A stretch of DNA of 43,269 bases from the NCBI GenBank assembly GCA_937139365.1, contig CAKZPT010000088.1, positions 1 to 43,269 on the forward strand. The letters run 5' to 3'. The notes beneath the pieces are model-generated. The model searched no databases. It was not told the origin of the DNA and saw only the letters and a program-made list of their open reading frames with translations. This document shows positions 5,315 through 30,169 of this stretch, in pieces. The stretch is from an uncultured bacterium. Lineage in GTDB: Bacteria; Verrucomicrobiota; Kiritimatiellia; PWTM01. A program made the position numbers and the translations under genes. Numbering within the stretch: position 1 is the first letter of the stretch; the number at the start of each line of letters is the position of its first letter.

Positions 5315-5342
5315 ACGGAGGGCTTGGTTGAGAAGAGGATTC

Positions 5343-6993
5343 ATGAGAGAGCGCACGTTCGCTTTGGGGGTGGACTACGGGACCAACTCGGTCCGGGGAT
5401 TGGTGGTCGACACGGTTACCGGCGCGGAGGTGGGGTCGTGCGTCTGGGATTACCCGACCGGCGAGCAGGGCGTCGTGCTCGATCCGGCCCAACCCGATCT
5501 GGCGCGCCAACATCCCCGCGACTACCTGAAAGGGCTGGAGGCTTCCGTGCGCGGTGCGCTGGCGAAGGCGGCCAAAACGGAGGGGTTTTCCCACGGACGG
5601 GTGATCGGGATCGGGGTGGACACGACGGGAAGTACGCCGATCCCTGTCGATGCGCTCGGCGAGCCGTTGGCGATGCGCGCGGAGTTCCCTGCCCGGTCCG
5701 CGGCCTTCGCGTGGCTCTGGAAGGACCACACCGCGCACGCCGAGGCCACAAAGATCACCGAGTCCGCCCGGCGCCTTCGACTGCAGTACCTGGCCAAGTG
5801 CGGGGGCGTCTATTCCTCGGAATGGTTCTGGTCCAAGGTCCTTCGCTGCCGTCGCGAGGCGCCCGACGTCTTCGAGGCGGCCCACACGTGGGTCGAGTGC
5901 GCCGATTGGATCCCGGCGGTGCTGACCGGCCGAACCGCGACCGACCGCTTAGCCCGTTGCATCTGCGCCGCAGGCCACAAGGCGATGTTCCACCCGTCGT
6001 GGGGAGGATATCCGGACGAGGAGTTCCTTGCCGCGGTCGATCCGGCGCTGGTCCGCGTTCGGCGGACCCTGCCGTCGGCCGCGGTGACGATCGCCGACAC
6101 CGTCGGCGGCCTGACGGCGGAATGGGCCGCGCGGCTCGAATTGCCCCAGGGGATACCCGTCGCCGGCGGCGCGTTCGACGCCCACCTCGGCGCGGTCGGG
6201 TCGGGCACCGCGCCGGGGACGATGGTGAAGATCCTCGGCACGTCGAGCTGCGACATGGCCGTCGCCCCGCCGTCCGAACGCGTGGCCGACATCCCCGGGC
6301 GTATGCGGGATCGTCCCGGAGTCCATCCTGCCCGGGCACCACGGCATCGAGGCGGGGCAGTCCGCGGTCGGCGACGTCTACAGCCGGTTCGTCCAGCGCA
6401 TCCGGCCGGGGAGCGGCGCCGCCGGGCACGAGGCGCTGAGCCGGGAGGCGGCCGTGCTTCGACCCGGCGAAAGCGGCCTGCCGGCGCTCGACTGGCACAA
6501 CGGGAACCGGACGGTCCTGGTGGACCCGCGTCTGAGCGGAATGGTGCTAGGGCCGACGCTGCATACGACTCCGGCCGAGCTGTACCGTGCATGGATCGAG
6601 GCGACGGCCTTCGGCGCCCGGACGATCGTCGAGCGACTGGAGGAGTACGGTGTGCCGATCCGGCGCGTGGTCGTCTGCGGCGGCATTTCTGTGAAGAATG
6701 CGCCGGTGCTGCAGATCTACGCCGACGTCCTCGGCCGGCCGCTGGAGGTGGCCCGGAGCGCGCAGACTTGCGCGCTGGGCGCGGCGATGGCCGGCGCGGT
6801 GGCCGGCGGGCCGGCGCGCGGCGGGCATGCCGATTTCGCCGCCGCCGCGGCGGCAATGACGGGCGTGCTGGAACGCGTGTTCCGCCCCGGCCCGTCGGCG
6901 GCTGCCGTCTACGCCGAATCGTACGGCCTCTATCGCTGTCTCCACGACGCCTTCGGCCGGCCGGGGCCGCGGGCGACCTGTCCGACGTCATGA
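5343..6993 (+). pseudogene. araB: Ribulokinase, frameshifted
   Basis: This is an FGGY-family kinase that phosphorylates L-ribulose to L-ribulose-5-phosphate in L-arabinose catabolism. The N-terminal phosphate-binding start GVDYGTNSVRG is at about residue 8. GVDTTGSTPIPVD, the conserved WKDHTAHAEA block and GGAFDAHLGAVG follow, then VCGGISVKN and an ADVLGRP segment in the C-terminal domain. At about 6297-6300 one extra base (GGG where GG restores the frame) throws the 5' part out of frame. Removing it gives 550 codons, the normal ribulokinase length, ending at TGA 6993. The ATG at 5343 is preceded by AGAGG. It heads an araB-araD-ROK cluster; araA is not in the window. It could be a young pseudogene or a consensus error, the latter favoured by the homopolymer position and intact flanks. 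Confidence 0.8.
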
Positions 6994-7048
6994 AAGCGCT
7001 GCTGGCTGTCCGCGACCGCGTCCGCGGGCGGTGAAAGAGAGGGGCACG

Positions 7049-9001: not shown

Positions 9002-9602
9002 TCAACGCGGAGGGCAACAAACCCGGATGTTGCGGAACTCCACCGTCATCCGCATGCCTTCGTGCACCTGCAGCCCGATCGGCCCCGTCGCGGTATGGAC
9101 GGCGTTGGTGTAGGCCGAGACCTCCCGACCGTTGATCTGGATGCGGAACGAGGGGCTGCGCCTCGAGGTGCACCAGGTTCCAGTCATTGCTACGCCACGC
9201 CTCCACCACGCCCTTCGCCCGTCCCTCCTCCGGGTAGCCGCGAAGGTAGAACGAGCCGGTCATGTCCCGCCGCAGGCTGACGGAGACGCCAAGCTAGACC
9301 TGGATCGGCGGACTGCGCAGGAAGATTCCGCTGTCCACGTCCCCGGTCCAGCGCGCTTCCAGCTCGAGCTCCAGGTCCCCGAACTCGCGCTCCGTGAACG
9401 ACACGTGTCCCTTCATCTCCGGACCGGACGCGCCGACGAACACGCCGTTGGACACCGTCCAGAACGGATAAAGATCCGGCGCCCGCCAACCCGTCAGATC
9501 GCGGCCGTTGAACAACGCCTCCCATTCGGCCGGCCCGGCCGTCGCCGCCCCGACGCCGGCGATCCCCATGCCGATGGCCAAAAACGCCCATGTGAGTGCC
9601 AT
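9002..9602 (-). pseudogene. DUF1080 (3-keto-disaccharide hydrolase-like) protein with in-frame TAG and a frameshift
   Basis: The start is normal: a signal peptide (residues 1-22), then WEALFNGRDLTGW and DSGIFLRSPPIQV, which are typical of DUF1080 concanavalin-like proteins that cleave modified disaccharides. An in-frame TAG at 9294-9296 replaces what family alignments suggest is Gln (IQVxLGVSVS). The same frame continues convincingly through RRDMTGSFYLRG. A one-base frame change near 9160 (the GAGGCGCAGCCCC stretch) is then needed to reach INGREV and VEFRNIRV. Apart from these two lesions the protein is full length at about 200 residues. Two independent lesions favour a real pseudogene. Convergent with the ROK gene. 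Confidence 0.8.
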
Positions 9603-9750
9603 GGTCCAATCCTCCAGTGTTTGCCTTCAAACCCCTGTCGGGCGCTTCGACCGTCCGCGTGCCCCTTTCCGCCTACTCCGGCTGCGCCTGTCGTCTGGCA
9701 TGCCGCCGCGCCCTCCCGCCCCGCGGCAGATGCCGGGGCGGCCCGGCGCC

Positions 9751-10107
9751 CTACGGTCGTTCCTTACCGTGCAGGTATTTGATGACCTCGATGTTCTCCA
9801 TCGTGACCAGCCCGCCGGACTGCGCCGACTCGAAGAGGTCGTGGAGCACCGGAAGGAACCGGTGGATCTTCTCTTCTTCGTCGGCGATTTCGACGATGAC
9901 GGGCAAGTCGGTGGAGAGGTCGAGAATCTTTGAGGTCCGGATGCGGCTGGTCGGTCCGAATCCCATGATGCCCCGCCACACCGTCGCGCCCGCCATTCCG
10001 AGCCGGCGAGCCTCCCGGACAATGGCTTCGTAGAGGGCGGTGTGCTTCACCCGGTCGCCTTCGCCCAGGAAGATCCGAAGCAGCTTCGCGTCGGCCTTCA
10101 GCTCCAC
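9751..10107 (-). CDS. DUF190 family protein (PII-like fold), partner of CrcB
   Basis: This is a 118-residue cytosolic protein. Family markers are LLRIFLGEGDR near the start, GATVWRGIMGFG at about residue 38, VIVEIADEEEKI at about 70 and a C-terminal VEVIKY-like strand. DUF190 proteins are found next to crcB in many bacteria and are thought to accompany fluoride export, though their exact role is unsettled. The GTG start at 10107 is supported by GGAGGTGG just upstream and overlaps the end of crcB by 10 bases, so the pair is translationally coupled. Confidence 0.82.
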   Translation of the reverse strand: MELKADAKLLRIFLGEGDRVKHTALYEAIVREARRLGMAGATVWRGIMGFGPTSRIRTSKILDLSTDLPVIVEIADEEEKIHRFLPVLHDLFESAQSGGLVTMENIEVIKYLHGKERP

Positions 10108-10505
10108 GGTCCACCTCCGATCCTGGCGAGCGCACGCACGGCTGCGATCCCGGCCACGAACGCGGACAGCGAAAGCACAAAAGTTCCGACGGCGTACAGC
10201 GAGGCGTGCAAGAGTTCCCCGGTGCGCAGCATTGCGGCGGTCTCGTAGATCATCGAGGACATCGTCGTGAACCCGCCGCAGAAGCCGGTGGCCAGCGCCA
10301 AACGCGCGGCCGGCGGGATGCCGCCGCGATCGGACAGCCCGGCGATCACGCCCACGAGAAAACATCCCAGCGCGTTGGCCGTCAAGGTGCCGACCGGCCA
10401 ACCGACCGGCCATCGCTGCGACGCCGTGCTCAACCCGTAACGGGCCAGCGACCCGGCAAAACCGCCGAGCCCGACCCACAACGATAGAATCCATCCGCTG
10501 GTCAC
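10098..10505 (-). CDS. crcB: CrcB-family fluoride channel
   Basis: This is a 135-residue protein with four predicted membrane helices. It forms dual-topology dimers in the inner membrane that export fluoride. Family landmarks are GGFAGSLARY at about 14-23, TANALGCFLVG at about 42-52 with the conserved Asn44, and GFCGGFTTMSS at about 74-84. The last differs from the common TTFS by Met for Phe. The start is GTG at 10505 with AAAGGG upstream. It is first in the crcB-DUF190 pair and diverges from the DUF6807 gene. No fluoride riboswitch could be recognised in the 190-base leader. Confidence 0.88.
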   Translation of the reverse strand: MTSGWILSLWVGLGGFAGSLARYGLSTASQRWPVGWPVGTLTANALGCFLVGVIAGLSDRGGIPPAARLALATGFCGGFTTMSSMIYETAAMLRTGELLHASLYAVGTFVLSLSAFVAGIAAVRALARIGGGPWS

Positions 10506-20988: not shown

Positions 20989-22537
20989 ATGTGCCTGACC
21001 TGTGGGATGGTTGTCGCCCTGTTCGGGGCGGCCGTCGCCGCCGACCGGCCGAGCTTCATCTTGTTTCTCACCGATGACCAGGGCTGGGCCGACGCCGCCT
21101 TCGCCGGCCACCCGTGGGTCCGCACCCCATCGCCCGACCGCCTCGCCCGGGAGGGTACTTGGTTTTGTCAGTTCTACGTGCCCTCGACGGCCTGCTCTCC
21201 AACCCGCGCCGGTTTCCTCGATGGCCTCGAGCCGGCGCGACTGCACATCCACGGCCACCTTTCGGACGCGGCCAGCAACGCGGCGCGCGGCATGCCGAAC
21301 TGGATGGACCCCTCCGTACTCACCGTCGCCCGCCATCTCCGCGGCGCCGGCTACGGGACCGCCCACTTCGGCAAGTGGCACCTCGGCGACGGCCACGGCG
21401 CCCCCGCCCCTCCGACTACGGCTTCGACGTCCACGTCACCGTGAACGCCAACGGCCCATCGCTGGGCGGGGAGAACGCGCAGAACGACCCCTTTTTCCGC
21501 GCCCGGTCCACCGCGATGATCGTGGATGAGGTCCTCTCCTTCATCCGCCAGCACCGCGAACGGCCCTTCTACGTGAACGCCTGGACCCTTCTACTCCATG
21601 CCCCGCTCAACCCCACGCCCGAGCAGTTGGCCGTCTACGCGGAACTCGATCCCCGCCCCGACCACCCCGCCTTCGGCCCGTGGATGCGCGACCACCTCGC
21701 CGCCGCCATGGACCTGCGGCACCAGATGCGCGTCTTCTGCGCCTCGCTCACCGACCTGGACACCCAGCTGGGCCGCCTGCTGGACGGCCTCGATGCGATG
21801 GCCCGTCGTCCGACACCGTGATCCTTTTCAGCAGCGACAACGGCCCGGAGGACTACCACATCCGCAATGCCGCCAACGCCGGCGTCGGCTCGACGGGGCC
21901 GCTACGTGCGCGCAAACGGAGCATGTACGAGGGCGGGATCCGCACGTTCGGTCTGGTCCGGTGGCCGGGCCGAGTGGCCGCCGGCCGGCGCGACGACGAG
22001 TTCGTCATGAGCGCCCTCGACTGGATGCCGACGGTGGCCAGCCTCGCGGGCGCGCCGCTGCCGGCCGAATGGGCCGGCAACGGCGAGGACGTCGGCGACG
22101 TCTGGCTCAGTGCCCGTCGCCCGCGCAGGACGGACCTGCACTGGGAATGGCTGTTCCGGGTGGTCGGCGAACCGGCCTACACCCCGCCGATGCTCGCCGT
22201 CCGCTCGGGGCCGTGGAAGCTCTTCGCGCAGCACGATGGAAGTCGCGTCGAGCTCTACCACATCCCGGACGATCCGGGGGAGCGCCGCAACCGTGCCGCC
22301 GACGAGCCCGCCGTCGTGAGCAACCTGGTGGCGAAGGCGCGGGAATGGCAGGCGTCCCTTCCGCCCGCCGAAGCCCGCGCGCGGGTCGCCGCCACGGGCC
22401 AGCCCGTCGACGGCCGGCCGGCCGCGCCGATCCCGGCGGCCGAGCGGGACCGCCGGCGTCAGATGTTTCGGCACAAAGACGCTGACGGCGACGGCCGACT
22501 GACCGAGGAGGAGTTCATCCGCGCCGGTCGCAGGTGA
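20989..22537 (+). pseudogene. Type I sulfatase with C-terminal EF-hand, two frameshifts
   Basis: This is a secreted formylglycine sulfatase, expected to remove sulfate esters from polysaccharides in the periplasm. A signal peptide (1-18) precedes LTDDQGW with metal-binding Asp29/Asp30. The maturation motif CSPTR (Cys69 to Arg73) follows, then GKWHLGDG and SSDNGPE, and the C terminus ends in an EF-hand loop DADGDGRLTEEEF. Two one-base deletions break the frame: near 21405-21415 (C run in GCCCCTCC) and near 21800 (ATGGCCCG, where ATGGGCCCG restores frame). Adding both back gives 517 codons, a normal length. Divergent from glgP. The intact catalytic motifs imply recent damage or sequence error. 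Confidence 0.8.
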
Positions 22538-22550
22538 CCGCCGACCCCGT

Positions 22551-22585
22551 GCCGCCGCGGCGGCGCAGCCGGCAAACTCCTTGCC
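22551..22585. terminator. Candidate bidirectional terminator between convergent sulfatase and GH28 genes
   Basis: The 105-base gap between two stop codons holds a 14-base perfect palindrome (GCCGCCGCGGCGGC, 22551-22564). A second hairpin, GGCAA-ACTCC-TTGCC, lies at 22571-22585. Neither has a U-tract, so intrinsic termination is uncertain, but the position between converging genes fits. Confidence 0.3.
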
Positions 22586-22642
22586 CCGCCGCTCCACCGT
22601 CGGAGTTCCGGAACCGCCGCGATCCGGCGATCGAACGCGCGG

Positions 22643-23684
22643 CTACGGTCCGGCCCGGTCGAGAATCGCGGCGGCGGCCTCGTTGGCCGGCGTTCGCGAA
22701 AGGCCCACGATCCGAGCGTCCTCCACCGCGTACAGCCCCAGCGCCGCCCGCGGAAACGCCGCGAAGACGTCGTCCGGGATCGCGATGGACAGGTTTTCGA
22801 CGGTCACGCCGCGCGCATGGGCGATGACGACATAGGCGGGCTTCGTCGCGAACCGCGTGTCGCGCTCATCGCGCGTCGTCCTCCGCCCGCCGACCGGCTT
22901 GCGGCGCCCGGCGAAATCGGCCGCGCCGTTTACCTCGAAACGGATGTTCCGCAGCACGATCTCCTCCAGCGGCCGCTCCGGCATGCCCTGCAGCAGCGCT
23001 CCGTAGCGGCTGCGGATCGCGAGGTTCTCGAACACGACACCCCGGATCCGCGACACCCGCGAGGTCGCGTGCCGGCGCTCGATGTCCACGAACACCGGCG
23101 CGACCGACCGGTTGGTCAGCGCGCTGGTCTCGATCCGGATATCCGAGAAACGCACGTCCTCCATCGCCCCGCCGTCCTTCGCGTAGAGCCCGATCCCCGT
23201 CGGCGAGTTCCACACGACGCAGTTCGTGAACACAATCCGGCGGAAGTCGCCATGCGATTCGGTGCCGAGCTTGATCGCCGTGGCGGCGGACTCGAATTCG
23301 CAGTCGGCGACGAGCACGTCCTCGCAGGGCCTCTCCTCCGTCGCCTTGAGCACCACGCAGTCGTCCCCTGCGGAGATCCGGCAGCGCGTGATCCGGACGC
23401 GCTGGCACATGTTCGGGTCAACGCCGTCCGAGTTTAGCCGCCGGTAGTTGTTGCGGATCTCGACCCGGTCCACCTCGACGGTCTCGCAGCCGCGGAAATG
23501 CAGGGTCCACGAGTCGCTGTGGCGGATCCTGGATCACGGCACGATCACAGGTCTCGCCGTCGCCCCGTGCGCCGAAGCGGCGGACGTTGAACTCCGCGCC
23601 GCCCGCCGCCGCGGCTAGTCCTCCCGTCACGACGAGGACAGCCCGGCCCGGATCGGCCCGGCGCACTCCCTCACTTCGCCTCAT
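22643..23684 (-). pseudogene. GH28 polygalacturonase-like protein with large internal deletion
   Basis: The C-terminal 300 or so residues read as a GH28 beta-helix. They show NSDGVDP, AGDDCV with the paired catalytic Asp residues, ESHGDF in place of the usual GHG, and repeated short helix rungs. The N-terminal part is a signal-like segment plus FNVRRFGARGDGET, the normal start of GH28. At about 23530 it jumps directly (with a frame change) from AVIQ into RHSDSWTLHF. In typical members about 110-140 residues separate these two blocks, so roughly 330-420 bases appear to be missing. The junction sits at ATCCAGGATCC, a short direct repeat. The ATG at 23684 overlaps the upstream lipoprotein gene by 14 bases. 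Last gene of a five-gene overlapping operon. GH28 enzymes cut pectin or rhamnogalacturonan backbones. Confidence 0.8.
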
Positions 23685-24135
23685 CGGTCCAGACCCCCCA
23701 GTACACCGGACCGTCGCGCCGGCCCGGATACTTGTCCACCACACCGCCCATGACGTGATCCTCCAGCGGCGCGAGAAGCGCCATCCTGTGGATCGCCCCG
23801 GGGCGGAACCGCCGGACGTTCCCGCCGATGCCCGCGACCCACCGGTCCGCCGCCTGCCAGCGGGGTTTCCACGGGTTGTAATGCGCGACGAAGATCCGCG
23901 CTCCCGGCGCGAGATCGCCCCGATGCGTAGCCAGCACCTCGTACGCCAGCACCGTCGCGTAGTCGTACAGCTCCCGCCGGATGATCGCGCCGTCGGGCAC
24001 CTCGAGCAGCCGCGCGGTGATCTCCATCTCGCCGGCCTCGTGGACGCGAGTGCCGCCGCCCGGACCTCCGCCGCAGCCGGCGGCCGCGGCCGCGCAGAGC
24101 ACCGCCGCGAAACGGATCGGCGCGGCGGACTTCAC
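23671..24135 (-). CDS. Small lipoprotein of unknown function in the GH28 operon
   Basis: This 154-residue protein has a lipobox (AAAAAGC, Cys at about residue 20) followed by a Gly-rich linker, so it should be anchored to a membrane. The mature part is one compact domain with EITARLLEVPD, YDYATVLAYEVL and IFVAHYNPWKPR. I recall similar domains encoded beside MBOAT/AlgX-like O-acetyltransferase clusters, but this is memory, not a search, and no such gene is in the window. The GTG start at 24135 overlaps the TGA of the propeller gene (GTGA). It is intact inside an otherwise heavily damaged operon. Confidence 0.65.
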   Translation of the reverse strand: MKSAAPIRFAAVLCAAAAAGCGGGPGGGTRVHEAGEMEITARLLEVPDGAIIRRELYDYATVLAYEVLATHRGDLAPGARIFVAHYNPWKPRWQAADRWVAGIGGNVRRFRPGAIHRMALLAPLEDHVMGGVVDKYPGRRDGPVYWGVWTDEAK

Positions 24136-25181
24136 GGCGGAGGTTCCCGGCCGCCGGCGCGCGATCCGCCGAACGTCCAGCAGGGTTCCCACCCCTGGGG
24201 CAGGCAGAGCACCGGGCCGCGCCGCACGCCGGGATGCCGCCGCAGCAGATCGGGGCTGTTGCCGCCGACGATCGGGGCGTCGGCCAGCCGCATCAGGCCC
24301 ATCGGCGCGCCGCCGCCCGCCGGGTCGCCGTCCTCGGCCGCGTTGCCGGTAAACAGGACGTATCGGCCGTCGGGCGAGACGCGTCCGCCGTAGACGTGGC
24401 GGCCGTCCTCCGCGTACACGAGGGACGCTCCGCCGCCGTCCGCGTCGGCGCGCCAGAGCTGCGTCCATCCGTACTCCCGGCCCTTCGGGATGCGCCGCGA
24501 AAAAAACACGCCGCGCGAATCCGGAAACCAGTCCGGCGTTCAGCAATCCGGCTGACACACCGCCGCCGCGCCGGTTTCGATGTCCATGACGGCCACGCAC
24601 CATCTCTCGCCGAAGGAATTGGCCACCCCGACAATGCGGCGGCCGTCGGGCGACCAGGCGGGTTGCTGGAAAAACCCCCGCCGGGGCGGCGTCCGGAGCG
24701 TCCGGCGCGTCGCGATCTCCGCGATCGAGAACCCGCGGATCGAAAGGCACAGCAGCCGATCGCCGTCCGGCGCCCAGCAGGCCCAGGGGTACTCGCCGGC
24801 GGCACCGAGCGTCACGGCGTCCGCGCCGTCGGCGCGGGCCAGGATCAGCTCGCCCTGGGCGCCGTGGCGGTTGTTGTCGAACGCCTCGGTCCGCGGAATG
24901 CGCCGCCACAACAGACGCGCGCCATCGGGCGACCACCGCGGCAATCCTTCGTTGTAGCCGGGCGTTCGCGTCAGGTTGGTCCGGTCTGAGCCGTCCGGGC
25001 GGCAGACGAAGATGTCGGGGTCGCCCGCTTCCGAGCGGGCGGCGTAGGCGATCCAGCCCAGGTCGCAGACCTCGCGCCGGAGGGCGTCCATCGGCGGCTC
25101 CTCCGCGGCGGTTGCCGCGAGGCCGGCCAGCAGCGCGCAGCCGACGATCGCCGGGGCCCCGCTCATGTGCCCGTTCCACAT
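24132..25181 (-). pseudogene. TolB-like WD40/beta-propeller exported protein with in-frame TGA
   Basis: The frame codes for about 349 residues: a signal peptide, then TolB-type propeller blades with the repeated WSPDG motif (RWSPDGARLLW, CWAPDGDRLL, AWSPDGRRIVG, VSPDGRYVLF). An in-frame TGA at 24540-24542 interrupts the fourth to fifth blade (PDC-stop-TPDWFPDSRG). Coding continues cleanly in the same frame to 24132. Such propellers bind proteins or glycans in the periplasm; a specific role is not known. The ATG at 25181 shares one base with the stop of the DUF4832 gene (TGATG), and a GTG at 25184 is also possible. The 3' end overlaps the lipoprotein start by four bases. Confidence 0.72.
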
Positions 25182-26692
25182 CACGGCGCAATCCTGATCC
25201 GGCCGAGGCGGTGGAACCCGTCGCCGGCCTCACGCGTGGCGGCCAACGGGAGGGCGACGTCGCGCCCGGCGAGGTCGGCGCGCAGTTTAAAAAGGAGTTC
25301 GTAGTCGCCGGCGGGCGCGTCGGCCGGGATCGCCACCTCGTAGGCCTCGCGTGACGGCGGCGCGCCGGGCGCCCAGCGCGTATTGCCCGCCGGCCGGCTC
25401 ACCTCGATGCGGCGGGGGCCGTCGAGGCGCAGCCGCAGCGTGTAGGGCCGGTAGGCGCGGGCGACGCCGCGGTTTTCCCAGACGATCGCCACGGTTCCGG
25501 TTGCCCCCGGCCGAAGCGCGTCGGGCCATTCGGCGCAGTGCGGAAAGAACCAGTAGCCGCAGCGGTTGAGCAATTCGACGGTGAGGGCGGGGTTGTCCGC
25601 CAGCCACTCGCGCGCGTAGCCGTGGTAGCCGATCCAGGTCGCCTGCAGCAGCTCGAGCGCGCCGCGCAGCAGGTCCGCTCCCGTGCGGCCGCTGCCGAAC
25701 CGCTCGAGCGACGAGCCCGGCCGCGGCGTCCAGTTGCCCAGCCGCTTCACGGTCCCATAGTGCCCTAGCTCGAGAACGGTGGGCGCGCGTGGCGCCGCGT
25801 CGCGGAAGAACTCCGGACTGCGAACCGTGCACGCGGCGGCATGGCCGCCGAAGTAGCCGTCCACCAGGATGCTGTCGTCCCGGTAACCGATCCCCGCCGC
25901 GAGGATCTTCTCGTGCATCCGCTTCCGGTCGGCGGGGTCGGCGAGGCTGTACACGAAGTCGTCGGAGACGATCAACTGGCTGCGGCGGAAGTGTCGGAGG
26001 TGGAGGTCCACGTGGCGCGCGAGGACGTCGTAGGGGTACTTCTTGCGGCTGCCGGCCCAGGTGTGCCCCTCGCCCCAGTCGCCGAAGCTGCCGATGTCCA
26101 CGTACCGCAGCCACGGCTGGCCGTCGTACCGGGCGGCAAAGGCCGCCAGAAACCGGTCGAGTTTCTCCAGAAACACCGGGTCGCCGAAATCCGGCTCCCA
26201 CGGCGCGTCGGTACCGGCCTCCGCGCCGCGAACGTAGTGCCCGCCCCTCGCTCCCGCGTCGCGCACCCAGCGCGGTGTCGCGAACCGCTGCTCGGGATCG
26301 GACAAGTTCGAGGTTTCCTTGCAACTGATCCGGAAAGCCGCGCCGAGGCCCCGGGCGGTCCATGTCGCGATCGGCTCGTCGATCCGGTCCCATCGAAACC
26401 GGCCCTCCTCCGGCTCGAGCCATGCCCACGCGAGCCGCAGGTAGATGTGGTCCATGCCGGGAAACGAGGTCAGCTCCTCGTCGCGCTCGAGCAGGTACTT
26501 GTTCGTCGCGTTGTCGAGGTAGTGGTGGTACCAGCCCTTGTCCGGATTGGGCAGGGGGCGCGCGGCGTCCCAGGCCGGCCGCAGGTCCGCCGTTCCGGCG
26601 GCTGCGGGGCGCAGGCCCGCCCCCGCCGCCGCCAATGCAACGGCGGCCATCAGCGCAACGCGGGCGCGGCGGAGTGCGGCGCCGCTGGTCAC
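25181..26692 (-). CDS. DUF4832 domain secreted protein (glycoside hydrolase-like barrel)
   Basis: This is a complete 503-residue protein. A signal peptide (about 1-33) is followed by a TIM-barrel-like region with NPDKGWYHHYLDN near 50, LRLAWAWLEPEEG (strand-helix with a Glu often catalytic in GH clan A) near 90, and VDIGSFGDWGEG near 220. The C-terminal DUF4832 beta-sandwich includes NRCGYWFFPH and VWENRGVARAYRPY. The function is unproven; relatives occur in polysaccharide utilisation gene sets. The GTG at 26692 overlaps the stop of the peroxiredoxin gene (GTGA), and its stop overlaps the propeller start. It is the only large intact gene of this operon. Confidence 0.78.
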   Translation of the reverse strand: MTSGAALRRARVALMAAVALAAAGAGLRPAAAGTADLRPAWDAARPLPNPDKGWYHHYLDNATNKYLLERDEELTSFPGMDHIYLRLAWAWLEPEEGRFRWDRIDEPIATWTARGLGAAFRISCKETSNLSDPEQRFATPRWVRDAGARGGHYVRGAEAGTDAPWEPDFGDPVFLEKLDRFLAAFAARYDGQPWLRYVDIGSFGDWGEGHTWAGSRKKYPYDVLARHVDLHLRHFRRSQLIVSDDFVYSLADPADRKRMHEKILAAGIGYRDDSILVDGYFGGHAAACTVRSPEFFRDAAPRAPTVLELGHYGTVKRLGNWTPRPGSSLERFGSGRTGADLLRGALELLQATWIGYHGYAREWLADNPALTVELLNRCGYWFFPHCAEWPDALRPGATGTVAIVWENRGVARAYRPYTLRLRLDGPRRIEVSRPAGNTRWAPGAPPSREAYEVAIPADAPAGDYELLFKLRADLAGRDVALPLAATREAGDGFHRLGRIRIAP

Positions 26693-27370
26693 GCCTTGCC
26701 GCTCCGTCCTGCGCCGACGTCGGGGCCCTTTTTCAACCAGAGCAACCAATCGACGCACTTCACGTTCGGCCCCGAATTGTTCACCCGCTCCCTGGCGGCG
26801 CCGCAGGAGCCAGGCGGTGGCACGGTGGCGTCCTCTCCCGGCCGCCAGTTGGCCGGCGTGGCGACCTGAAACTCGTCGGCCGTCTGCAGCACGATCGGGA
26901 GGCGAAGGATTTCGTCCATGTTCCGGCCGATGCTGAGGAGGTGGTACAGGATCGCGCGGATCCTGCCCTCGGGGTCGATCCCGAACACCGCCCGTACCGC
27001 CTGGGATGGCGCTGGCCCCCGGCGGCAACGTGCCGTAGGCGCGGGCGGCCTCCATCGTCAGGTCGCTGATCACGGGGAACGTGACCTCGACGTTGTTCAT
27101 CCCGCCGAACTCGATCTGCTCCTTCTCACCGTGATCGCGCACAGCCAGGCGATCTGGCTGCAGGTGCTGTCGATCGAGAGGCCCAGCAGCCGGCAGATCC
27201 GCCGTTCGAACTCGGGTGCGTCGCGGTGAAGGCCATGAACTCGGTGGGGCATGCCAGTGTGAAGTCGGCCGGCTCGTCGTCGGGGAAATGACGGGCCCCT
27301 GCGTGGTCTCGGCCTCGAAGGCGGGTGCGCGCTCTCCGATCCGCGGCAGCCGGGAGGGGGATTCGTTCAT
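26689..27370 (-). pseudogene. 1-Cys peroxiredoxin (Prx6/AhpC-TSA type), heavily degraded
   Basis: The ATG at 27370 has a good AGGAGG site. The first 28 residues (IGERAPAFEAETTQGP) are typical. The peroxidatic motif PADFTLACPTEF (P-x3-T-x2-C) is present but only after a frame change near 27285, and the FPDD and PADF blocks abut. About 11 residues that normally lie between them (the WVVLFSH strand) are missing. Further one-base shifts near 27228, 27130 and 27010 are needed to join SIDSTCSQIAWLC, FPVISDLTMEAARAYG and GIDPEGRIRAILY. At least four frame changes plus one deletion in 0.68 kb make this the most damaged locus. The 3' part ends normally and couples to the DUF4832 gene. The family normally reduces peroxides in the cytosol. 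Confidence 0.78.
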
Positions 27371-27494
27371 CGAGGCGTCCTCCTGGTTCAAGCGCGCGCG
27401 GTGCAGCGCTTGTCCGTGGAGCATATGTGGCAGCCAAAGCCCAGACAACCCCGCGTTTGCCTGGCGGGTCGGTCCGTGCCGTCGTGAACATCGG

Positions 27495-28611
27495 ATGGGC
27501 GCGCGGCGACAAGCGGGGGCGAGGACCGGATGGGCCTTCGCCCTGGTGCTGGCCGCTGCGGCGGATTGGCCGGTTCACCGCGGGGATGCCGGACTGCGCG
27601 GCGTCGCGGCATGGGGGCCCGAACCGCCGTTGCGCAGGGTCTGGTCGGCCCGCGTTGCCGAGGCGTCGCATTCCTCGCCCGTGATCGCCGGCGGGCGGGT
27701 CTTCGTCGGCAGCGATTCCAATGCGCTCGTCGCGTTGGACCTGGAGTCCGGCGCGCCCCTCTGGACCGCCCCGGCCGACGCGCCGGTGGACGCCCCGCCG
27801 CTGGCCGCGGGCGATCGGGTGTTGGCGGCCACCGAGCGGGGGGGAGTTCTTTGCGGTGGAGGCCCGAACCGGCCGTCGTTGTTGGGCGCAAGCGCTCGGC
27901 GGCCGCGTCGCGGGCTCGCCGAATCTGGCCGCCGCTGGCGGACGACGGCTGGTGCTGGTCGGGTCGTACGACGCGTGCCTCGGCGCGCTTGACGAACGCG
28001 ATGGCACGCCGGTGTGGGCGATCGAAGCCGAGGACTACACCCACGGGACGCCGGCGGTGGCGGGGGAGGTGGCGGTCGCCGGAAGCTGCGACGGACGCGT
28101 CTATGTGGTCGCCCTGTCGAACGGTGCCGTCGTCGCTCGGGTCGAGGCGGGTTCCCACGTGCCGAACTCCCCAGCGGCGGACACGAACCTGTCGGTGGTG
28201 AGGACCTACGAGGGAGAGATGGTGGCGATCGAGCCGCGGGGCGGAGCGATCGTCTGGCGAACGACCCTGCCGGGGTCCGCGCCGATCTTCTCCAGCGCCG
28301 CGCTGACGGCCGACCGCCTCGTGGTCGGCACCCGTTGCGGTTGGCTGTCCGCGCTGCGGCGCCAGGATGGAGCCGTCGCGTGGGAGTTTCGCGCCCGCGA
28401 TGCCATCGACGCCTCCCCCGTGGCGGCAGGCGGGGTCGTCTGGGTGGGTTCGGACGACGGCCGGCTGTATGCCGTTTCGCTATCGGACGGCCGGCTTTTG
28501 TGGGAGCATGAGGTCGGCGCAGCGATTCCCGGATCGCCGGCCGTCGCCGGCGACTGGCTGGTCGTGGCCGATGCCGACGGCGTCGTGCACGGGTTTCGGC
28601 GTCGGCCCTGA
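27495..28611 (+). pseudogene. PQQ-type beta-propeller exported protein, one frameshift
   Basis: From ATG 27495 a signal peptide leads into DWPVHRGDAGLRG, the usual start of planctomycete-style PQQ propellers. Blades with SSPVIAGGRVFVGSDSN, GTPAVAGEVAVAGSCDGR, SPVAAGGVVWVGSDDGRLYA and a final SPAVAGDWLVVADADG follow. One extra G in a seven-G run near 27839-27846 shifts the frame; removing it gives 372 codons, a complete propeller. BamB-like proteins of this type act in outer-membrane assembly, while many relatives are uncharacterised periplasmic proteins. It is divergent from the peroxiredoxin operon and followed 33 bases later by the transporter gene. The homopolymer position favours sequence error. 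Confidence 0.72.
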
Positions 28612-28644
28612 GCTCGCCTCGGAAGGCTCAAGGAGGGCGGCTGG

Positions 28645-30169
28645 ATGACGCTGAGCGCGTTGGATGTGGCGGTGGCTTTCTTTGCCGCCGTGGTCGGCGT
28701 GGGGCTGTGGTACGGACGGCGGCGGGCCGACGCGGAGGACTATTTCCTGGCCGGTCGCGGCCTTTCGTGGTGGCTCATCGGCATCTCGATCGTCGCGGCC
28801 AACATCTCCACGGTGCAGTTCGTGAGCATGGCCGGCCAGGGTGCCGGCGCGATCGGTCTGGCGGTGGCCAACTGGCAACTGCTGGGGGCCGTGGCGATCG
28901 TGTTGATCGCCTTTACGATCCTGCCGGTCTTTCTGCGGGCGGGCGTCTACACGATGCCGGAGTTTTGGAACACCGGTACAATGCCGCCGCGCGCTCCGTC
29001 ATGGCCGGGCTGACGGTGGCGATCTACGTGGTCGTTTTGCTGACCGCCGTCTTGTACTCGGGCGCGCTGACCCTCCGGGCGATTTTCGGGCTTCGGCTGG
29101 AGACCGCCGTCTGGCTGATCGCCGCCGTTGCGACGGCGTACACGTTCTAGGGCGGGCTGCGCTCGGTCGCTTGGGCGGATCTTCTGCAGGGGCTGGCGCT
29201 GTTGTTGGGCGGATTGGTCGTGTTCGGGCTCGGCCTGCGCGCCTGCGGAGGGTGGAGGGAGCTCCTGGCGCACAACGAGCCGCGCCTCCACATGGTCCTA
29301 CCGGCCGATCATCCCGGCCTGCCGTGGACTGGCGTGCTGGCGGGCATGTGGATCGTTGAGGTCTACTACTGCGGCCTCAACCAATTCATCGTTCAGCGCA
29401 ACCTCGCGGCCCGTTCGCTGCGCGACGGGCAGCTCGGCGTCATCTTCGCGGCCGGCCTCTGGCTGCTGGTGCCCTTCGCGATCGTTATGCCCGGCATCAT
29501 GGCCGCCCAGTTGTACGGTCCGGAGCTGGCCACCCCGGACGAGGCATTCCCGACATTGATGCGCCGGCTGGTGCCAGACGGGCTGCGGGGCTTCATGTTC
29601 GCGGCGATCGCCGGCGCGGTGACCAGTTCGCTGGCCTCGATGCTCAACTCAGCCGCCATGATCGCGACCATGGACCTCTATCACCGCTGGCTCGACCGCC
29701 GCGCCCCGCCGGCCCGGCTGGTCGCGGTGGGGCGGGTCCTGACGTTGGCTATGGTCGCGGCCGCGGCCGCGCTGGCCCCCGCCTGCAGGATCCCCGATGG
29801 GGCGGGGTCTTCCAGTACATCCAGCGCTTTCAAGGCTACATCTGGCCCGGCGTGGCGGCGGTGTTCCTGTTCGGACTGCTTGTGCCCGACGTCCCCGGCG
29901 CGGCCGGCGTGATCGGCCTTCTGCTTTCGCCCACCTTCTACGGGCTGTTCCAGTGGCTTGCGCCGGACCTACATTTCCTGATCCAAGTCGCCATCGTGTT
30001 TCAGCTCACGCTGTTGGCCATGGGCCTGGTGACGCTGATCCGCCCCCGCCGCGGGGCCCGTCCGCTGCCGGCCGTCCGGGACCTGGGCCCCACCTGCTCG
30101 CCGGGCGTTCTGGCCGCGGGGACCGCCGTCCTCGTGGCTGTAGCGGCGTTCGACGCCGTGTTCTGGTGA
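28645..30169 (+). pseudogene. Sodium:solute symporter (SSS family), two frameshifts and an in-frame TAG
   Basis: The start is good (AGGAGG before ATG 28645), and the first helices read DYFLAGRGLSWWLIGISI and ANISTVQF as in SGLT-type sugar symporters. A missing T near 28967 (TTTT where TTTTT restores MPEFLEHRYN) and a missing C near 29777 break the frame. A TAG at 29148-29150 stands in the conserved YTxxGGL turn before a clean continuation (GGLRSVAWADLLQG, NQFIVQRNLAARS, GAVTSSLASMLNSAA). Adding both bases gives 509 codons, a normal size of about 13 helices. The family takes up sugars or related solutes with Na+. It follows the PQQ-propeller gene and could have fed sugars to the neighbouring pathways. 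Confidence 0.8.

Follow-up and report, generated by a model that had tools for sequence, protein, structure and literature searches.

Putative pseudogenes at a sulfatase locus point to genome-wide erosion of carbohydrate-use genes, above all formylglycine sulfatases

Accumulation of pseudogenes under relaxed selection is known in bacteria from Mycobacterium leprae and Sodalis. Genomes rich in sulfatases, on the other side, are commonly read from their gene counts as those of sulfated-glycan degraders. For the Kiritimatiellales strains F1 and F21, which can use sulfated polysaccharides for growth, the only anaerobic sulfatase-maturating enzyme (anSME) has been reported as a candidate maturase (PMC6388578).

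Here, we have analysed a window of 43,269 b, which is the entire contig C88 of a MAG-like assembly of 2.82 Mb in 117 contigs (G000, the genome under study, ∼97% complete). Comparisons were made with three congeners (G001-G003, of which G003 is only 68%-complete) and five further genomes of the same family. Lesions were called by frameshift-aware protein-to-DNA alignment against intact relatives, domains were assigned by Pfam, and a codon-usage Viterbi analysis provided a second view of the reading frames in the window. A strict lesion has at least 12 identities in 30 alignment columns on either side. The genome-wide set comprised 209 G000 genes, aligned across 914 kb, that have relatives and show the substitution pattern of coding DNA. 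Antisense shadow frames, which inflate genome-wide lesion counts, were told apart from true coding frames by a third-position test.

The initial annotation had described six of eight genes as broken within 9 kb, with only the DUF4832 protein and the small lipoprotein whole. Alignment to intact relatives confirmed this count at 20989-30169, and both of the latter genes are open (Table 1). Each of the six is a pseudogene in the sense that it carries frame-disrupting lesions relative to intact homologues. The Viterbi analysis likewise placed frame switches in the sulfatase, peroxiredoxin, PQQ and SSS genes and a break at the stop in the TolB-like gene. The sulfatase, with a PF00884 domain and a C/S-x-P-x-R motif, belongs to type I (formylglycine); it retains the Cys-type motif CSPTR, and its PF00884 domain is spread across three frames. 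In the peroxiredoxin, the ∼30 nt deletion takes away ∼10 codons immediately ahead of the catalytic-Cys motif. Outside the lesions, the broken proteins of the window except GH28 keep 50-78% identity to intact relatives, suggesting that the damage is recent on the time scale over which the genus diverged. The nearest named relatives at the DUF4832 locus are Lentisphaerae MAGs, including VGWF01000028, and on this basis G000 would be a Lentisphaerae/Kiritimatiellota-like bacterium.

Table 1. Broken and whole genes in the window (positions of lesions are approximate where marked ∼)
Gene	Position	Strand	State	Details
FGGY carbohydrate kinase	5328..7034	+	broken	+1 (∼6294), -1 (∼6958); outside the claimed island
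Sulfatase	20989..22537	+	broken	PF00884, SGSH_C and EF-hand tail; -1 at ∼21406, -1 at ∼21798
GH28	22643..23668	-	broken	N-terminus FNVRRFGARGDGETCDRAVIQ, then loss of ∼120 codons (∼360 nt); frame change at ∼23525
Small lipoprotein-like	23671..24135	-	intact	open in alignment
TolB-like PD40 propeller	24132..25181	-	broken	one in-frame TGA at 24542 (Cys in relatives)
DUF4832 protein	25181..26650	-	intact	start approximate
1-Cys peroxiredoxin-like (Prx)	26692..27375	-	broken	at least five lesions: -1 ∼27289, ∼30 nt deletion, -1 ∼27221, ∼8 nt insertion ∼27126, +1 ∼27007
PQQ/BamB-like propeller	27530..28611	+	broken	+1 within a G7 run at ∼27837-27849
Sodium:solute symporter (SSS)	28645..30169	+	broken	-1 ∼28966, TAG 29148 (Trp in relatives), -1 ∼29775

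Elsewhere in the window, the genes that had been listed as undamaged (glgP, both mgtE, waaA, pyrC and cinA) were all found open. The initial annotation implied that only the genes at 20989-30169 carry lesions, which did not hold, as an FGGY carbohydrate kinase at 5.3-7.0 kb is frameshifted twice. Separately, a weakly conserved gene at 9023-9630 shows a weak signal of a TAG stop at 9296, and its frame may switch near 9158; adjoining CrcB and DUF190 genes at 9751-10505, possibly a fluoride-export pair, are both apparently intact.

The sulfatase of the window has many broken kin. A PF00884 search of G000 gave 64 matches, which we grouped into 40 loci; the state of each was judged by frameshift-aware alignment together with split frames and internal stops, and ∼23 are broken and 17 open. 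Grouped in the same way, the matches in G001 give 49 sulfatase loci with 3 broken, and those in G002 give 42 with 6 broken (Fisher test against G000, p = 9e-8 and 6e-5, respectively); these manual groupings may be off by a few loci, but an error of that size is small beside the contrast between genomes. No other family measured in G000 is as eroded as the sulfatases. Could the genes stay functional through stop-codon recoding or programmed frameshifting? That the TGA of the TolB-like gene stands in place of a Cys is in keeping with recoding, but TGA, TAG and TAA all occur within the sulfatases of G000, the frameshift sites share no obvious common motif, and the deletions take out essential parts. 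We therefore rejected stop recoding on the mixed stop types, and regard this explanation as a whole as hardly credible.

The decay is genome-wide and selective between gene classes. We counted 74 strict lesions, made up of 50 frameshifts and 24 nonsense codons, which break 33 of the 209 aligned genes of G000, some calls in low-identity alignments being possibly spurious. Of the 20 genes with 80% identity or more to relatives, none is broken, and in an ABC-ATPase control all 31 full-length domains are open. On untargeted contigs of G000, 17 of 123 genes are broken, vs 6 of 118 in the control genome G002 at the stricter threshold (p = 0.03), a moderate excess. With 13 strict lesions across 35 kb of aligned coding sequence, the window is about as dense in lesions as the untargeted contigs of G000 (48 in 150 kb), which indicates that the clustering lies between gene classes and is not specific to the locus; decay specific to an island was rejected on this ground.

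The arrangement of orthologues in the relatives was also compared. The PQQ and SSS orthologues adjoin in G001-G003, and in G006 the lipoprotein, TolB and DUF4832 genes lie near one another. The sulfatase and peroxiredoxin orthologues are located elsewhere in the relatives. A conserved polysaccharide-utilisation island was not found, as in G001, G002 and G006 the orthologues are spread over separate loci. The initial annotation had proposed relaxed selection on a polysaccharide-degradation module. Our results favour relaxed selection on genes for polysaccharide use, but not a discrete island or module: the orthologues are scattered, and the decay is genome-wide and takes in the maturase on another contig. 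The scale of the decay is the genome and not a 9 kb island, with the sulfatase family and its maturase mostly outside the window.

Beyond the sulfatases, the broken genes of G000 include the FGGY kinase, GH5-like, GH28, peroxiredoxin, SSS, DUF4159 and HZS_alpha/SUMF1-like proteins. This range would be expected if the whole genome were undergoing reduction, by host restriction or drift, with sulfatases being merely the largest dispensable family. Such a reduction is a real possibility, if not a likely one, since G000 is only ∼10% smaller than two congeners, GC along the window stays at 63-74% and the conserved genes are intact. Among the proteins just named, the HZS_alpha/SUMF1-like one of G000 (L145:17111-19991, C91) has six lesions; in G002, a large protein with an HZS_alpha-like middle domain and a SUMF1-like domain without the FGE cysteines is open (L167:793-4416, C24).

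Locally poor consensus was the alternative offered by the initial annotation, and in its wider form the lesions would be consensus or assembly errors concentrated in low-coverage accessory regions of the MAG. The assembly in 117 contigs and the position of the PQQ lesion in a G7 run are in keeping with error. Moreover, 32% of strict frameshifts are near homopolymers against a background of 12% (∼3x), while about two thirds are not near one; this enrichment fits slippage and sequencing error alike. The lesions in the window are, however, mixed, comprising frameshifts, two nonsense codons, the ∼30 nt deletion, the ∼8 nt insertion and the ∼120-codon deletion, which argues against simple indel error. 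Against error also stand the 24 strict nonsense codons, among which TGA, TAG and TAA all occur, the ∼360 nt length of the longest of these deletions, the freedom of conserved genes and ABC domains from lesions, the far fewer broken sulfatases in the congeners, and the open and broken sulfatases that lie side by side on C60, C90 and C101. We consider error very unlikely. Substitution patterns were compared as well. Unique amino-acid changes on the G000 branch vs a congener are 242:179 in multi-lesion genes and 485:478 in intact genes (Fisher p = 0.016); a per-gene relative-rate test of only 7 genes was not significant (p = 0.06), and third-position bias in G000 showed no difference once identity was allowed for. 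The pooled amino-acid excess and the codon-position results fit weakly with a recent loss of constraint.

A TIGR03942 search of G000 found one anSME (C84:32307-33437; L166:7173-8462) with stops inside and no second match. In the alignment, one frameshift falls within its radical-SAM CxxxCxxC motif, which is thus not intact in an open frame as in a functional member; the gene has a further frameshift and a TAA. The one anSME of G002 (C24; L167:8426-9733) also has a stop inside; its third cysteine is lost in a scrambled stretch and a TGA stands mid-gene. Even so, about 36 sulfatases of G002 are open. The same search found anSME open in G001 and in the six more distant genomes G004-G008 and G013, and gave none in the 68%-complete G003. 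Changes at conserved anSME sites amount to 32% in G002, 19% in G000 and 17% in the intact G001 copy, and the G002 copy is apparently the older and more degraded of the two broken ones. Since their lesions differ, the two losses look independent. As for the oxygen-dependent FGE, a subset of PF03781, proteins of that family are present in both G000 and G002; the members examined, a subset, are without the FGE Cys pair after the GGS motif, and an FGE pattern search that had no working positive control gave zero matches.

It is conceivable that the single anSME was lost first and that the sulfatase family collapsed as a unit. The dead anSME of G000 and the severe erosion of its sulfatases would agree with this order of events, as would the single anSME encoded by related Kiritimatiellales isolates (PMC6388578). 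The anSME of G002, however, is dead for apparently longer and yet only ∼6 of 42 sulfatases are broken there; non-sulfatase genes decay in G000 too, and maturation of the FGE type could still take place. We find this order unlikely. A search of the literature for sulfatase pseudogenes with anSME loss gave nothing relevant.

In our assessment, the broken genes are probably genuine pseudogenes of fairly recent origin. The window would be a local sample of an erosion that runs through the genome and affects dispensable genes for carbohydrate use, formylglycine sulfatases most of all, with recently relaxed selection on sulfated-glycan use. We propose that selection for desulfating glycans may have lapsed in the G000 lineage, and that genes could then have failed singly while core metabolism remained constrained. 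With its single maturase lost, every remaining anSME-dependent sulfatase would be useless, and this could plausibly speed or lock in the sulfatase collapse. A broader suggestion is that inactivating one shared maturase can strand a family of dozens of enzymes, the genus showing stages from G001 (anSME intact, ∼6% of sulfatases broken) to G002 (dead, ∼14%) and G000 (dead, ∼57%); this we hold to be quite unlikely as it stands. The genus offers a natural series in which to ask whether, once a single maturation enzyme is gone, all of its clients are lost as a result. As for gene counts, the 64 domain matches of G000 conceal ∼23 dead loci and a maturase that is dead as well, and a reading from counts alone would mislead.

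As in M. leprae and Sodalis, many genes of G000 have accumulated several lesions (frameshifts, nonsense codons, deletions), and the core genes are spared. What differs is that the decay of G000 is strongest in one catabolic family, the type I sulfatases, and that G000 is related to environmental MAGs. Strains F1 and F21 resemble G000 in having many Cys-type sulfatases, one anSME gene and several PF03781 proteins (PMC6388578), but in G000 over half of the sulfatases are broken, as is the anSME.
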